A stretch of 5,627 bases of DNA from Deltaproteobacteria bacterium (GTDB lineage: Bacteria; Desulfobacterota_B; Binatia; UBA9968), in assembly GCA_030620935.1 (NCBI GenBank), contig JAUXIP010000160.1, positions 1 through 5,627 of the forward strand, in the 5' to 3' direction. The translations under genes were made by a program, and so were the position numbers. This document shows positions 233-5,022 of the stretch, in pieces. Position 1 is the stretch's first letter. The number at the start of each line of letters is the position of its first letter. A model generated the notes under the pieces. That model saw only the letters and a program-made list of their open reading frames with translations. It was not told where the DNA came from and made no database searches.

Positions 233-1624
233 ATGGTGAGAGACCGCCTGCAGACTTTCGCAGTCGCGGTGCTCGGCCTCGCGCTCTGTGTGATCCTGGC
301 CGCCGGCAGCGGCAACGTGAGCGCAACCGGGGCAAAAAAGGGGTCGGGAGTCTTTGAGTTAGGACTCCCGACCCCCTTCCGATCTCCCAAGTTCGGGCCT
401 GAGCGCCGGCTCGGACAGCAAAACAGAACTCCATCCACTCCGTTCCTGCGCCACAGCCCCGACGGCCGCCTCTATGCGATCTGGGTCGAGGACGACCGCA
501 GGCCGGATGCTACCATGAGGCGCGTGGGGTCCTATGCGAACCCCTTGGCCATACGCCTGGCACTGCTTGCCTGGTCGGCTGATGGGGGAAAGAGCTGGTC
601 TGAGCCCAGGCAGGTCAACGACTCGGTAGAAAGGGTCCAGGAAGGGGAGAGTGGGCCAAGGATCGCCTTCGGCGCCGACAACAGGGTCTACGTGGTCTGG
701 TCGATAACCGGCGAGACAGGTAGCATTCTGCGGGGGAACGTCCGCTTCGCGATGGAAGATGGGAAGGGCGGCTTCACGCCCGCCCGGACGCTCAGTGAGG
801 TCAAGGGTGCGGCGCGCTTCCCCATCGTCGAGGTCGCGCCCAACGGCAACTTACTGGTGGCTTGGGTCGATCGTCGCATCGACAACCCGAAACCGCGTCA
901 GCTCTACCTGATGCGGCTCGGCCCCGATGGCAAGGCGCTGACGAAAAATTACCAGGTAGGCGAGGGGATGTGCGACTGCTGCCGCATCGGCATGGCCATC
1001 GGCGACGGCGGCAGAGCGGTCTACCTGGTGAGCCGGGAGGTGAGTCCGGAGCAGATCCGCGACCACGCGCTCAGAAAGTCCACCGACGGCGGCGCGACAT
1101 TCGGACCGCCCGTCGAGATCAGCGACGACGGCTGGAAGGTGCCTTTCTGCCCCGACTCCGGTCCGACGATCGGCCGGGACGATCGCGGCTATCTCCACGT
1201 CACCTGGTTCACGCTCGGCCGCTCCGCTAAGAGGGATGGCGGCGTGTACTACGCCGTCTCGAAGGACGGCGGTCGGAGCTTTGCCCCTCGCCGATCGGTC
1301 CAGCGTAGCCCCGGATGGCTACTCCATACTGCGCTAGCGGTCGGTAAAGACGGGACAGTCTACTTTGCTTGGGACAACCTCGACAGCTCAGGCAAGTGGT
1401 CCCGGATCTTCGTTCGCGCACTGGCTCCGGACGGAAAGGGCTGGGGCCCGATTCAACAGATCAGCCGGGCGAAGAGGAATGCTACCCGGCCGGCGCTGGC
1501 GGTTTCGGAGAAGGATCTCCACGTCGCCTGGACGGAAAGTTATGGAGAGCTGACTGATGGAGAGCCGAGTTTTGGAGAAGAGCCACTACGGGTCGTGCTA
1601 AGGAGCGCCCGGCTTGTCGAGTGA
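233..1624 (+). CDS. Exported BNR/Asp-box beta-propeller protein (sialidase-like, Cys-rich CDCC type)
   Basis: 463 residues. Residues 1-31 form a Sec signal peptide: MVRDR, a hydrophobic core at about 9-24, and a plausible cleavage site after NVSA. The rest reads as a beta-propeller. Clear Asp-boxes (S-x-D-G-G-x-x-W/F) lie at 115-122 (SADGGKSW), 283-290 (STDGGATF) and 343-350 (SKDGGRSF), with degenerate ones near 175-181 and 399-404. Blade strands such as VYVVW, LLVAW, LHVTW and LHVAW recur. Proteins like this are usually labelled exo-alpha-sialidase, but I see no FRIP/YRIP arginine motif, so glycosidase activity is doubtful. Distinctive features are CDCC at 247-250 and FCPDSGP at 305-311, a cysteine set that could bind metal or form disulfides. 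The start is fixed by AGGAGG three bases upstream. A REP-like inverted repeat encodes about residues 36-48, a segment that looks added after the signal peptide. The stop overlaps the GTG of the next small frame (GTGA), suggesting translational coupling. Fold and export are well supported; the substrate is unknown. Confidence 0.88.
   Translation: MVRDRLQTFAVAVLGLALCVILAAGSGNVSATGAKKGSGVFELGLPTPFRSPKFGPERRLGQQNRTPSTPFLRHSPDGRLYAIWVEDDRRPDATMRRVGSYANPLAIRLALLAWSADGGKSWSEPRQVNDSVERVQEGESGPRIAFGADNRVYVVWSITGETGSILRGNVRFAMEDGKGGFTPARTLSEVKGAARFPIVEVAPNGNLLVAWVDRRIDNPKPRQLYLMRLGPDGKALTKNYQVGEGMCDCCRIGMAIGDGGRAVYLVSREVSPEQIRDHALRKSTDGGATFGPPVEISDDGWKVPFCPDSGPTIGRDDRGYLHVTWFTLGRSAKRDGGVYYAVSKDGGRSFAPRRSVQRSPGWLLHTALAVGKDGTVYFAWDNLDSSGKWSRIFVRALAPDGKGWGPIQQISRAKRNATRPALAVSEKDLHVAWTESYGELTDGEPSFGEEPLRVVLRSARLVE
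340..375. repeat. REP-like inverted repeat inside the coding region (13-bp perfect arms)
   Basis: GGGGTCGGGAGTC (340-352) and its exact complement GACTCCCGACCCC (363-375) flank a 10-base loop, with A-rich sequence before (334-339) and TT soon after. GGGGTC...GACCCC hairpins of this kind are typical of REP elements mobilised by RAYT (TnpA-REP, Y1 transposase) enzymes. This copy lies in frame within the sialidase-like gene, just past the signal peptide, and adds roughly a dozen residues (GSGVFELGLPTPF) without a stop. In the mRNA it would form a strong hairpin about 110 bases after the start codon. The family assignment is inference from the pattern; the inverted repeat is directly visible. Confidence 0.75.
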
Positions 1625-1731
1625 AGACGCAGCGCTGGCCCGCGAGGCGTTTTTTCGGGCTTGCCGTCGGGCTGCTGCTCCTCTGGGTCGCTGCGGCCCT
1701 GACATTGGGCCGTAATTTATGTTGCCATTAA
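1621..1731 (+). pseudogene. 5' remnant of a tlpA-like gene: 36-codon membrane-anchor stub
   Basis: A GTG at 1621 overlaps the stop of the sialidase-like gene (GTGA), the classic arrangement of a coupled downstream gene. The frame reads MKTQRWPARRFFGLAVGLLL, then LWVAAALTLGR and NLCCH before TAA. This is a basic head followed by a hydrophobic stretch at about 11-29, just like the N-terminal anchor of TlpA/ResA thioredoxins, but the mature domain is missing. GC is high to position 1710 (62 of 90 bases from 1621) and falls to 24 of 60 immediately after, so the last five codons probably come from inserted DNA. The missing part is probably the thioredoxin domain now encoded at about 3675-4209. No good Shine-Dalgarno is visible, consistent with coupling. 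It might instead be an independent small membrane protein or a chance frame. Confidence 0.5.
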
Positions 1732-1767
1732 ACGGCTTGACCAGTTTCAAATTCAGCAGATCTCACG

Positions 1768-4209
1768 ATGACTGAGGACAAAGAACAAGCAGCGCCGAGC
1801 GGAGCGGACGGTGTCGCTCAGAGCTTCGCAGCCCGGCTGCGTGTCCTGTGCAAAAACGTCTTTTTCACGATGATCATCCTCACGGTATTTTTTGCAGCAT
1901 CCGAACTCGTCTTGGCACTCATTGGAGTTCGCCCGGTTCTCTTGACCGAGGATCCCCTGGTTGGCTTCTCAGAGCACATCCCACAGTTCGTCGAAGCGCG
2001 CCGAGCCGATGGCTCCGTCATACTCAAAACAGCGAACAACAAGCGCAGACTGTTTAACATTCAAACGTTTCCCAAGAACAAAGCCAGCAACAGCTATCGG
2101 ATCTTCTGCATGGGGGGATCCACCACCTATGGTCGCCCGTATTCCGATAGCGTCTCGTTTTGCGGATGGCTGCGTGCGTTTCTGCGCGCTGCGGATCCGA
2201 TGCGCAACTGGGAGATCATCAATGCCGGTGGCGTTAGTTTCGCCAGCTACCGTGTGGCCAAGCTGATGGATGAGGTGAAGCTATATGCGCCGGATTTGTT
2301 TATTGTCTACTCTGGGCAAAATGAATTTCTCGAGCAACGCTCTTATGGAACCCTGATGAATCTCCCGTCCTGGGTGCTTCATGCCGATGCGGTGCTCGGG
2401 AGCACCCGAACGTATGCTGCCATGAGAAACGTGCTTGATGCCCTGAGACCCGACTCGCTTCAACAAGCACGAAAACGCGCTGAACTCAGTGGCGAGGTGG
2501 ATGAAATCCTCAACCACACCATGGGTCCCATCAGTTATCATCGCGATGACGCCCTCAAGCAGCAGATCATGACCCACTACCGCCTGAATCTAAGCCGCAT
2601 GGTTCACAATGCACGCAGTGTTAACGCAGACATCATCTTTGTTCAGCCCGCCGTTAACCTCAAAGACATGTCCCCTTTCAAGAGCGAACACAAAGCGGGA
2701 TTGAACGAAGAAGCGCTAAAGCAATGGCAGACCTTGGTTCAGCAGGCCACGGCACTCCACAAGGCAGGCCGCGTGGGGGAGGCATTGGCCCTGTATCGCC
2801 GGGCACTTCCTATTGACGACCGCTATGCCGAGCTGCATTACCGCATTGGACAGGTCCTTTTTGATCTGGGGGAATACCACGGAGCCGAGCAGGCCTTTTG
2901 GCGTGCGGTTGATGAAGACATCGCTCCGCTTCGCATCCTCAGCCCCATGCAACGGATCGTTAAAGACGTTGCCTCCCGGCACAACGTTCCGTTGATTGAT
3001 TTTCCGCGCATCCTCCAAGAGGCCTATTTTGCCCAATATGATCACGCCGTCTTGGGCAAGGAATATTTTGTTGACCATGTCCATACCAACATGGAAGGCT
3101 ACCGTCTGTTGGGTCTGGCCCTGCTTGATCAGTTAGTCAATCAGGGGATTGCCGCACCCGTGGCCTCCTGGGGCGAGGCGCGCATGGAGCGCGTGAAGCA
3201 AGAGGCCATTGCAGGCCTGGATCCCCGGGAAGAGGGCTGGGCCTTGAAGAATCTGGGAAAGGTGCTGGATTGGGCTGGAAAGTTTGATGAAGCACACAAC
3301 GCATTCTTGCGGGCCTTGGAGATTCTAGGCCCGGACCCAGTCATCTTTTTTCGACTTGCCAAGACGCTATCAGGCCGAGGAGAGCTCGATGAGGCCCTCC
3401 AATATCTCCGCCAGGTGGTGCCCATCGATCCAAACAGGGCGGACCTCCATCAAAAAATAGGAGGCTTATTAGCGCAGCAAGGGAAAACGGATGAAGCCAT
3501 CGAACATTACCAATGGGAGCTTCAGCATCATCCGAATAATTATCGCGCGCATACCGGGCTTGCGATTCAGCTCGCAAAGCAGGGTGATAGCAGGACTGCA
3601 ATCCATCATTTCTCAGAGGCCTTGCGACTGAAACCAGACGACAAAGTCGTAAAGAAACATCTGCAACAGCTGCGAGGGCGCCGCCACCGGGTAGGGGCCG
3701 CCGCTGAGGTGATCCTTCCGTCGACCGCAAGTTCGCAGGCCGGGCAGAACGCGGCCCCGACCATAGGCGCGGCGGCAGTCGGTTTCGAACTGAAGACGCT
3801 TGATGGCCAGCCCGTCCGGCTGGAGAAGTTTAACGGCAGGCCCCTGATTGTGAACTTCTTTGCGAGCTGGTGCGGTCCCTGCCGGGAGGAGATGCCCTTG
3901 ATCAACGCGCTGGCGTCCAAGGCGGATGAAAACGGCTACGCGGTGCTGGGGATTGCCATCCAAGATAGGCGCGCCTGGGTCATGGAGTTCGCCAGGGAAG
4001 CCGGGGTCGTCTTCCCCGTCGCCCTCGACCGCAACAGAAAAGTGCAACGGGCCTACCGCGTCCTCGGCCCTCCAACGACATTTTTCATAGACGCCCAGGG
4101 CGTTATTCGCGACATCGTTCTCGGACCGCTCACTCCGGAGCGTGCGCGTCAAGCGCTGGAAAAAACCGGGTGTACCAAACGGTGCCGGGAGCCGGTTGAT
4201 TCAATGTAA
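1768..4209 (+). CDS. Membrane-anchored SGNH hydrolase-TPR protein fused to a TlpA-like thioredoxin domain
   Basis: 813 residues. A basic segment (AARLRVLCK) and a hydrophobic helix at about 31-53 predict an N-in anchor with the rest in the periplasm. SGNH/GDSL blocks follow: GGSTTYG 116-122 (nucleophile Ser118), NAGG 152-155, GQNEF 183-187 (Asn185), and DHVH at 436-439 (Asp436, His439) in FVDHVHTNMEGYRLLG. A TPR pair at about 318-383, ending DEDIAPLR, sits between blocks III and V, a layout I recognise from large TPR/SGNH proteins of environmental bacteria. Further TPRs span about 487-635. From about 640 a low-complexity Ala-rich linker leads to a complete TlpA/ResA/DsbE-type thioredoxin domain at about 666-800: VGFELKTLDG, WCGPC 701-705 and the cis-Pro motif GPPTTFFID 767-775. 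GC jumps at the TPR/thioredoxin boundary (26/60 in 3601-3660, 44/60 in 3661-3720), so the fusion is probably recent. Likely roles are an ester- or acyl-type hydrolase with a protein-binding scaffold plus dithiol-disulfide exchange; substrates are unknown. The ATG at 1768 precedes the anchor but has no clear Shine-Dalgarno. Confidence 0.9.
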   Translation: MTEDKEQAAPSGADGVAQSFAARLRVLCKNVFFTMIILTVFFAASELVLALIGVRPVLLTEDPLVGFSEHIPQFVEARRADGSVILKTANNKRRLFNIQTFPKNKASNSYRIFCMGGSTTYGRPYSDSVSFCGWLRAFLRAADPMRNWEIINAGGVSFASYRVAKLMDEVKLYAPDLFIVYSGQNEFLEQRSYGTLMNLPSWVLHADAVLGSTRTYAAMRNVLDALRPDSLQQARKRAELSGEVDEILNHTMGPISYHRDDALKQQIMTHYRLNLSRMVHNARSVNADIIFVQPAVNLKDMSPFKSEHKAGLNEEALKQWQTLVQQATALHKAGRVGEALALYRRALPIDDRYAELHYRIGQVLFDLGEYHGAEQAFWRAVDEDIAPLRILSPMQRIVKDVASRHNVPLIDFPRILQEAYFAQYDHAVLGKEYFVDHVHTNMEGYRLLGLALLDQLVNQGIAAPVASWGEARMERVKQEAIAGLDPREEGWALKNLGKVLDWAGKFDEAHNAFLRALEILGPDPVIFFRLAKTLSGRGELDEALQYLRQVVPIDPNRADLHQKIGGLLAQQGKTDEAIEHYQWELQHHPNNYRAHTGLAIQLAKQGDSRTAIHHFSEALRLKPDDKVVKKHLQQLRGRRHRVGAAAEVILPSTASSQAGQNAAPTIGAAAVGFELKTLDGQPVRLEKFNGRPLIVNFFASWCGPCREEMPLINALASKADENGYAVLGIAIQDRRAWVMEFAREAGVVFPVALDRNRKVQRAYRVLGPPTTFFIDAQGVIRDIVLGPLTPERARQALEKTGCTKRCREPVDSM
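3679..4209 (+). other. TlpA/ResA-like thioredoxin domain, probable 3' part of the interrupted tlpA-like gene
   Basis: This is the 3' segment of the fusion gene, residues about 638-813, marked separately because its origin seems different. It has the order expected of a secreted thiol-disulfide oxidoreductase of the TlpA family: a short Ala/Gly/Ser-rich linker, FELKTLDGQPVRLEKFNG, the strand LIVNFFASW, the redox motif WCGPC, then VLGPPTTFFIDAQGVI with the cis-proline. With the 31 uninterrupted residues of the stub at 1621 it would make a protein of about 200 residues, a usual length for an anchored TlpA. Its high GC matches the stub and the sialidase-like gene, not the TPR section before it. 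The exact left edge is uncertain by some tens of bases. Confidence 0.6.
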
Positions 4210-4211
4210 AC

Positions 4212-4229
4212 CCCGCCTCTTGAGGCGGG
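4212..4229. repeat. Inverted repeat 1 of 3 after the fusion gene
   Basis: CCCGCCTC (4212-4219) and GAGGCGGG (4222-4229) are exact complements separated by two bases, beginning two bases after the stop codon. An alternative stem joins AAACCCC (4208-4214) with GGGGTTT (4242-4248). The hairpin is very GC-rich but is not followed by a T-run, so it may protect the mRNA 3' end or be repeat debris rather than a simple terminator. Confidence 0.55.
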
Positions 4230-4249
4230 CACAAAGCCGATGGGGTTTG

Positions 4250-4280
4250 CAAAGGGGAGAAGCGGCAGCTCTCCCCTTTG
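4250..4280 (+). terminator. Candidate terminator hairpin, inverted repeat 2 of 3
   Basis: CAAAGGGGAGA (4250-4260) pairs exactly with TCTCCCCTTTG (4270-4280) around a 9-base loop, an 11-bp stem. The GC-rich core has A on the left and TTT on the right, so it resembles a bidirectional intrinsic terminator with a short U-tract. It lies about 40 bases after the fusion gene's stop and before a candidate promoter, the expected place for transcription to end. The weak T-run keeps confidence moderate. Confidence 0.45.
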
Positions 4281-4311
4281 GTCGAACACCGAGTTTTACC
4301 CCGTGTTCGAC
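4281..4311. repeat. Inverted repeat 3 of 3, directly abutting repeat 2
   Basis: GTCGAACAC (4281-4289) and GTGTTCGAC (4303-4311) are exact complements separated by 13 bases. It starts on the base after the preceding hairpin ends, giving a back-to-back array of three perfect inverted repeats within about 100 bp. It could be a second terminator element, a regulator-binding palindrome for the downstream gene, or a short repeat element. Confidence 0.45.
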
Positions 4312-4332
4312 ATAACTTGATTTGACGGGCCT

Positions 4333-4362
4333 TTGGCAGTAAATTGAACTTATTTTTATAAG
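4333..4362 (+). promoter_or_regulatory. Candidate sigma70-type promoter for the GspC-like gene
   Basis: TTGGCA at 4333-4338 (five of six consensus bases) is followed after 18 bases by TATAAG at 4357-4362 (five of six). The surroundings are AT-rich, in contrast to the hairpins before. Initiation would fall near 4368-4370, leaving only a very short leader before the start codon at 4384, with the Shine-Dalgarno at its 5' end; that is a mild argument against exactly this placement. Confidence 0.4.
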
Positions 4363-4369
4363 CTCATTG

Positions 4370-4375
4370 GGAGGT
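4370..4375 (+). promoter_or_regulatory. Shine-Dalgarno that points to an ATT start codon
   Basis: GGAGGT is a full-strength Shine-Dalgarno. Counting eight bases on leads to ATT at 4384, in frame with the GspC-like protein. The in-frame stop TGA at 4345 and the absence of any in-frame ATG, GTG or TTG before the TTG at 4414 mean this site has no conventional start to serve. Confidence 0.65.
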
Positions 4376-4383
4376 GGAAAAAG

Positions 4384-5022
4384 ATTCTCAAACGCTCTTC
4401 GATACTCAGCCTATTGCTGCTGGCCGGCGTTATTTTTGTAGGCGAGAGAGTCTATCGGCTTTGGTCCGATGAGGGGTCTCAGAGGATCAGCAAGACGCAA
4501 GACGGCAAACCGCCCGCCGTTAGGAGTCCAACCTTCCGGCCTCGGCAATCGGGCACGGTGAGCACCAAACGCATTATCGAAAAGAATCTTTTCGATCCCG
4601 AGCGTGGCACGGGGCAAGCCCAAGGGACACAGGCTTCATCTACGGCCATGCAACAGGTTCAGAAAATGATTCTTTTAGGGACGGCGATTTTAGGTTCGAA
4701 CCGTTACGCGCTTTTTGAAGAGGGTTCAGCCGGAGGACGCTCGGCAAAAGCCAGAACGAAAAAGGGACAGAAAAATATCCTACGCCTGAAACTGGGAGAT
4801 ACAGTCGAAGATTTTAGGCTTTCCGAGATCCATGAGAAGAAGGTCGTCTTTACCAAGGGAGCATTGAAGGTTGAGATCGCTCTCGACTTCTTTCGGAAGG
4901 CTGGCAATGGAAACAAGCAGTCGGTGACCTCAAGACCGACTCGGGCGAAATCCAGGAGGGCGGTATCTCCACGACCCCGCACTCCGCGCCGGGCTGCCCC
5001 CACACCCACCGGGAGACCCTAG
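4384..5022 (+). CDS. Short GspC-like type II secretion protein, without PDZ domain
   Basis: Read from ATT at 4384 the product has 212 residues. It begins (M)LKRSSILSLLLLAGVIFVG, a basic head plus membrane helix at about 7-20. The motif IIEKNLFDPERG (64-75) matches the (R/K)NLFxP segment of GspC/XcpP-type proteins. It is followed by ILLGTAILGSNRYALF and, after a basic loop, LKLGDTVEDFRLSEI and KKVVFTKGALKVEIAL, the short beta-domain (HR region) of GspC and related PilP-like proteins. In type II secretion GspC is an inner-membrane protein whose HR domain contacts the secretin GspD in the periplasm. No PDZ or coiled-coil follows; the last 35 or so residues are a basic Arg/Pro/Thr-rich tail ending PTPTGRP. 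A TTG at 4414 would be a conventional start, but it lacks a Shine-Dalgarno and removes the basic head. The family call is fairly firm; the role in a specific secretion or pilus system is inferred, since the rest of the cluster is outside the window. Confidence 0.8.
   Translation: MLKRSSILSLLLLAGVIFVGERVYRLWSDEGSQRISKTQDGKPPAVRSPTFRPRQSGTVSTKRIIEKNLFDPERGTGQAQGTQASSTAMQQVQKMILLGTAILGSNRYALFEEGSAGGRSAKARTKKGQKNILRLKLGDTVEDFRLSEIHEKKVVFTKGALKVEIALDFFRKAGNGNKQSVTSRPTRAKSRRAVSPRPRTPRRAAPTPTGRP

Follow-up and report, generated by a model that had tools for sequence, protein, structure and literature searches.

Known relatives and the locus

Gene fusion and fission are general processes in bacteria, and bacterial gene fusions are mostly inferred from their end products. 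The locus described here lies in the window, i.e. the whole stretch of 5627 nucleotides that was analysed (contig JAUXIP010000160.1), and is best compared with two families of proteins. TlpA/ResA-type thioredoxins (P0241-P0250 among the matches listed; ResA structure 4nmu and TlpA structure 1jfu) have the same fold, WCxPC motif and place after a sialidase-like gene as a domain found in the window. In the window, however, the anchor of this domain is cut off as a stub, and the domain itself stands behind SGNH and TPR parts. Proteins consisting of an SGNH/GDSL hydrolase followed by TPRs (P0001 and P0002; PF13472) share the anchor, the SGNH motifs and the TPRs with the window, whereas their native last codons and stop are exchanged in the window for a thioredoxin domain. 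In P0002 (709 aa) and other longer relatives, a TPR stretch is present that is apparently missing from both the window and P0001. As in other fusion and fission events, two coding units have become one reading frame; the difference is that one partner is here split around the other, with its 5' end left upstream. A smaller kind of in-frame insertion is described in a report on Rickettsia, in which palindromic elements of about 150 bp are inserted in coding genes (PMC10969869). Among the literature matches listed, no description of an arrangement such as the present one was found.

Both reading frames reported in the first-pass annotation are present, a 36-aa stub starting with GTG (1621-1731) and an 813-aa fusion frame (1768-4209). 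The underlying observation, a split tlpA with an in-frame 3' fusion, is confirmed. Pfam places the domains of the long frame in the order GDSL lipase, TPRs and AhpC-TSA/Redoxin, so that the claim of a complete TlpA-like domain at the C-terminus of an SGNH-TPR protein holds. The features of the window are as follows.

233..1624, + strand: sialidase-like (BNR) gene, 463 aa; native left flank and upstream partner of tlpA
337..378, no strand assigned: hairpin within the sialidase-like gene; relatives are shorter here by at least 11 residues
1621..1698, + strand: 5' end of tlpA, 26 codons, membrane anchor; GTGA overlap of start and sialidase stop, alignment to TlpA anchors
1621..1731, + strand: stub reading frame, 36 aa, GTG start; TAA after 10 non-tlpA codons
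1699..1767, + strand: left end of the inserted DNA and SGNH-TPR leader; without similarity to tlpA
1768..4209, + strand: chimeric gene, 813 aa; anchor, SGNH hydrolase, TPR and TlpA-type thioredoxin
1768..3699, + strand: SGNH-TPR part, residues 1-644; P0001 is 93% identical
1837..1947, + strand: N-terminal hydrophobic (transmembrane-like) stretch, residues 24-60; hydropathy peak 2.47
2113..3084, + strand: SGNH blocks GGST (2113-2124), YSGQNE (2308-2325) and DHVH (3073-3084), from motif positions and conservation
3691..3705, + strand: 3' fusion junction VGAA/AEV; edge of the low-confidence model linker 644-662
3700..4209, + strand: TlpA/ResA-type thioredoxin domain; PF00578 at E 1.1e-26, WCGPC at 3868-3882
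4414..5022, + strand: GspC-like gene, right flank; relatives in 3/7 sialidase/tlpA genomes, on other contigs

The sialidase/tlpA pair in Binatia

The sialidase-like protein has a weak BNR_2 match that lies under the Pfam cut-off, and its nearest listed relatives are 71-75% identical. Its distribution was followed in a class-wide set of 148 genomes from the class of genome G003 (Candidatus Binatia). A sialidase of at least 53% identity occurs in seven of the 148, and close TlpA proteins (E 4e-55 or better) were found only in those same seven genomes, the next best match being at 5e-29. In all six Binatia-type genomes that have both genes on one contig, sialidase and tlpA are directly adjacent; in G002, the remaining genome, each of the two is located at the edge of a contig. 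The sialidase stop overlaps the ATG of tlpA in five of the six adjacent pairs, and in four of the six the first codons of tlpA read M-K-T, matching the window. An uninterrupted, directly adjacent pair does therefore exist in relatives, which is the check proposed with the original annotation. Two of the sialidase genes show irregularities of their own. That of G128 contains one internal TGA, and the sialidase-like gene adjoining tlpA in G004 (L004, 4203-4865) aligns in part only, residues 54-203 forming one piece, so that it may be internally deleted.

Both ends of tlpA

Residues 1-26 of the stub can be aligned to the anchors of those TlpA proteins that are closest among the matches listed (MKTQRW-ARR...). 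The best local score of this segment is 77 (median 48.5), obtained with the N-termini of the ten closest listed TlpA proteins. With shuffled stubs, the maximum for the same N-termini was 46, and 77 was reached in 0/1000 cases; the stub itself gave no more than 34 with the N-termini of 119 sialidases and no more than 29 with those of the 120 listed SGNH-TPR proteins. Together with the stop/start overlap seen in relatives, these scores bear out the TlpA-style anchor that had been read in the GTGA-coupled stub. On this sequence comparison, the 36-codon stub opens with the true 5' end of tlpA.

At the other end of tlpA, the AhpC-TSA/Redoxin family (PF00578) matches the fusion with 93.6 bits against a curated cut-off of 26, and the active site WCGPC stands at residue 701 (3868-3882). 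The ResA and TlpA models of NCBIfam both stayed under their cut-offs for the thioredoxin part (106.5 bits vs 170 and 62.8 vs 230, respectively). The four closest relatives of the fused domain among the matches listed are separate TlpA proteins of 84-90% identity. WCxPC is kept in 120/120 listed TlpA relatives; the variant in 114 of these is WCDPC, compared with WCGPC in the window. The alignment to tlpA picks up at AEVILPS, where the similarity of the stub ends, and the Ala codons of the joint are ambiguous by one or two. The gene is thus split at about codon 26 (1698/3700), with essentially zero tlpA codons missing. As had been predicted, the two pieces together have the size of a normal TlpA: codons 1-26 and the C-terminal part add up to 194 residues, compared with 183-250 in the ten closest listed TlpA proteins. 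Relatives were sought with each piece separately.

The SGNH-TPR gene and its relatives

Relatives of the SGNH-TPR part were sought by scoring 8000 candidates, and 120 of 817 matches are listed. The closest, P0001 (650 aa), is 93% identical over 79% of the fusion. It ends with RRHRVGAAVGLPR and a stop, about five codons past the joint, where the window has RRHRVGAA and then tlpA. The GDSL match of the fusion (PF13472) has 35.9 bits against a cut-off of 32.9, and the blocks GGST, YSGQNE and DHVH are conserved in 118, 120 and 120 of the 120 listed relatives, respectively. We take GGST, GQNE and DHVH to be the catalytic Ser, Asn and Asp-x-x-His blocks of the SGNH family.

A WCxxC motif is present in 0/120 listed SGNH-TPR relatives, and Pfam found no thioredoxin-type domain in P0001 and P0002. 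This bears directly on whether the protein might have a native SGNH-TPR-TlpA architecture and never have involved a separate tlpA. The reading frame is indeed open throughout, and with 120 of the 817 matches listed, rarer fusions, including a rare native one, may exist unseen. However, the missing motif among the 120, the adjacency of sialidase and tlpA in six of six genomes and a stub that is a real tlpA start all speak against such an origin, which we consider hardly credible. The native three-domain architecture was rejected as contradicted by the 0/120 count.

The 813-aa protein of the window is itself absent among the 120 of 817 listed SGNH-TPR matches, while the sialidase of the window (P0121) is listed in its own search, with a longest contig of 5627, so that the window is probably an entire contig. 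The 813-aa protein may have been absorbed into the 90% cluster of P0001.

Relatives of the insert are rare in the class. The SGNH part has some match in 27/148 class genomes, and only G091 exceeds 50% identity (52% over the SGNH part, 45% over 626 columns), the next class genome having 34%. The seven genomes with the sialidase/tlpA pair yielded no close relative of the insert: G142 alone matches the SGNH part, over a short stretch and at 33%, and a search with the whole SGNH-TPR protein in four of the seven gave just short TPR matches. In a phylum-wide sample, 7/395 genomes match at 1e-30 or better; at the DNA level, the insert region gave only short matches, in 22/395 genomes, the longest being 245 bases at 69%. 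Among the source names of the SGNH-TPR relatives are Candidatus Manganitrophus, Nitrospirae and Gammaproteobacteria MAGs. A tree was made from 30 of the 120 listed proteins together with the window and L038 (the G091 protein); in it, the window and P0001 stand between a Manganitrophus/Nitrospirae part and a group that holds Gammaproteobacteria, a placement that singles out no donor. The place of L038 is unsure because of its very long branch and the 59 residues before its likely start that were included. One scan of viral_contigs, in which exact peptide patterns from the SGNH-TPR protein were sought, gave zero matches.

How the fusion may have arisen

The sequence anatomy, the homologies and the conserved gene order are directly observed, and from these we infer the direction of events. 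A Binatia-type ancestor would have carried the usual sialidase-like/tlpA pair, probably translated via the overlap of stop and start. Into its tlpA, at about codon 26 and just past the membrane anchor, an SGNH-hydrolase/TPR gene and a leader of about 70 bases would then have been inserted without measurable loss of tlpA codons, the last five or so SGNH-TPR codons and the stop being replaced in frame by the rest of tlpA. What remained would have been the anchor as a stub of 36 codons, followed by a single long gene. That tlpA was interrupted by the SGNH-TPR gene with an in-frame fusion, giving one periplasmic protein anchored in the inner membrane, appears to us fairly likely. Insertion of a foreign gene into tlpA with in-frame 3' fusion, as the first-pass annotation read the locus, is supported by the relatives, although a single step is less certain.

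The doubt about a single step comes from the nearest relative. For P0001 and for the unbroken TlpA P0242, in which a hydrophobic stretch of its own is present, the listing gives an ENA contig of 4352 bp, probably the same one. In the nearest relative, therefore, the SGNH-TPR gene probably stands beside an unbroken tlpA, as linked but separate genes. This arrangement does not fit a simple one-step insertion in a common ancestor, and the fusion may have come about in a second step. The two-step version would have the SGNH-TPR gene arriving first beside a complete tlpA, perhaps with a duplicated tlpA start; its end would later have been joined to the tlpA domain through loss of the DNA between short GCC-rich stretches, and the stub would be a remnant of the first step. 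Both the tail of P0001 (VGAAVGLPR) and the LAAAEV of tlpA offer an Ala-Ala joint. The path between the window and its supposed sister is much shorter in SGNH-TPR (0.08) than in TlpA (0.30), which counts against the insertion account. Against two steps, the stub and the fused part are complementary within one or two Ala codons, which would be a coincidence if there had been a second, independent breakpoint. We regard two steps as possible, if on the unlikely side, and retain the interruption of tlpA by the SGNH-TPR gene as the main account.

The two tlpA pieces, the uninterrupted relatives and the 93%-identical unfused relative of the insert are all visible, so that the event can be placed within a few codons. 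The case is an instance of a known general process that is unusually legible, and its reach is modest, being that of a single metagenomic contig. It offers a legible single case of the possible birth of a chimeric protein in an uncultured lineage.

Composition and junction DNA

The GC counts first given for the edges of the insert are exact (62/90, 24/60, 26/60 and 44/60). The middle of the insert, by contrast, is not at 43-45% GC as had been stated: the value is 1056/1950, or 54.2%, over 1711-3660. Between adjacent 60-base stretches, the jumps at the two edges amount to 16 and 18 of 60 and are equalled at 1.6% and 0.9% of window positions, respectively. A two-breakpoint fit of GC over 233-4209 that ignored homology placed the breaks at 1713 and 3667 (delta lnL 22.5), compared with homology breaks at 1698 and about 3700. 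GC3 is 0.62 in SGNH-TPR, 0.77 in the sialidase, 0.75 in the thioredoxin part and 0.58 in the gspC-like gene. The latter has relatives in three of the seven pair genomes and is also low in GC3; thus, GC3 alone does not prove a foreign origin. The label 'foreign' is therefore favoured by the rarity of the insert in the class and by its GC3 (0.62 vs 0.75-0.77), and weakened by the gspC-like flank, which is also low.

Misassembly of two genomes or loci is suggested by these GC shifts at both joints, by the single 5.6-kb metagenomic contig and by the absence of the fusion protein from the 120 of 817 matches listed. It would, however, take two separate misjoins at the same tlpA codon, with the frame kept at one of them, and the 4352-bp listings of P0001 and P0242 independently suggest a linkage of SGNH-TPR and tlpA. 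An assembly chimera is accordingly very improbable in our estimate.

The GGGCCG word reported near both joints is shared by them and is the longest word common to the two junction neighbourhoods, but it has the frequency of chance and no demonstrable role. Six copies are seen in comparison with 7.2 expected, and 300/2000 random GC-rich pairs share a word of equal length, so that its sharing is attributed to chance; on the same counts, GGGCCG was rejected as a recombination site. The left copy lies nine bases past the end of tlpA similarity and forms an arm of a small terminator-like hairpin (1692-1714) that spans the left junction; such hairpins occur at chance number (3 vs 3.4). The word shared at the joints is maximally six bases, and shorter target duplications are indistinguishable from chance.

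Transposon ends were also rejected: no repeats of at least 10 bases, inverted repeats included, pair the two ends of the insert. As for a transposon- or integron-type insertion, the insert contains no transposase or integrase, its Pfam domains being confined to the SGNH-TPR frame. Six overlapping reading frames of 80-129 aa inside the insert gave zero Pfam matches. Rfam gave zero matches at gathering scores.

The predicted product

A model of the fusion protein was built from 34 aligned sequences (mean pLDDT 74.7). It starts with an alpha/beta region that is SGNH-like and modelled with mixed confidence, continues as a TPR superhelix modelled with confidence, and ends, after a low-confidence linker (644-662) at the joint, in a separate thioredoxin fold. 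The SGNH motif segments 118-125 and 430-439 fall below pLDDT 50. In the fold comparison, TPR proteins and ResA-type thioredoxins match best; ResA chains, which are also sequence relatives, match with a TM score (by target) of about 0.8-0.85. No SGNH hydrolase is among the 50 fold matches listed, all of which are TPR or thioredoxin proteins, and no sequence relative of the SGNH part was found in the PDB at E 0.1.

The thioredoxin part has no anchor or signal of its own within the fusion, in which residues 24-60 of the SGNH-TPR part are the only such hydrophobic stretch. The N-terminal helix from SGNH-TPR would keep all three domains (SGNH, TPR and thioredoxin) on the periplasmic side, with topology, expression and activity all predicted. 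The TlpA domain would in this manner keep its compartment and active site despite its cut anchor. Judging from the sequence, a single periplasmic protein is probably made, held at the membrane by the anchor of SGNH-TPR in place of the lost TlpA anchor. Borrowing the anchor of an inserted gene would be one route by which a domain deprived of its own anchor can still keep its compartment.

The fusion might instead be a decaying genomic accident, either not usefully expressed or with an inactive thioredoxin part. The stub is dead after 36 codons and the case is single; a scan of the + strand over 1550-4400 for one promoter type gave no sigma-70-type match, and no ribosome site is evident to the eye upstream of 1768. 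On the other hand, 813 codons are open, WCGPC and the SGNH motifs are intact, and the joint falls in a low-confidence, probably flexible linker. Further, the thioredoxin branch shows no lengthening in a tree built from the first 50 of the 120 listed TlpA proteins: at 0.10 it is the shortest of its four-row clade, the unfused relatives there having 0.11-0.18. Decay is thus rather unlikely, and an anchored periplasmic protein is the preferred reading.

Hairpins and other insertions in coding sequence

Other insertions were seen in genes of this pair. A GC-rich hairpin in the sialidase-like gene (337-378) lies just past the signal region, where 15/15 aligned relatives are at least 11 residues shorter; as a near-exact pattern, it had zero matches in viral_contigs. 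In the tlpA of G130 (L016, 2754-2905), an in-frame palindromic insertion (PPFEKGG...SPFFKGG) occupies the anchor region, the part that is split in the window.

These hairpins resemble the palindromic elements of Rickettsia in being in-frame coding insertions; the Rickettsia elements are about 150 bp, whereas a gene of about 1.9 kb is concerned here (PMC10969869). It is conceivable, though doubtful, that in this lineage the anchor region of tlpA tolerates insertions recurrently, and that hairpins (in G130 tlpA, in the window sialidase and, judging by its peptide, perhaps in P0244) and a whole gene have entered coding sequence in frame, with compartment and frame kept and new periplasmic multidomain proteins as the result. 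If this were true, the fused thioredoxin would act on the SGNH enzyme's own partners.

The close TlpA protein P0244 has an N-terminal extension (residues 1-75), which we presume to resemble a translated repeat element. The N-terminal extensions of P0242 and P0244 had no significant placement in the window or the loci examined. At the left end of the window, an overlapping palindrome, TTCGACTGAGCTCAGCCGAA, is found at 41-60 and is perhaps a dispersed repeat. Finally, two successive hairpins lie 3' of the fusion gene at 4250-4311, with arms at 4250-4260/4270-4280 and 4281-4294/4298-4311.
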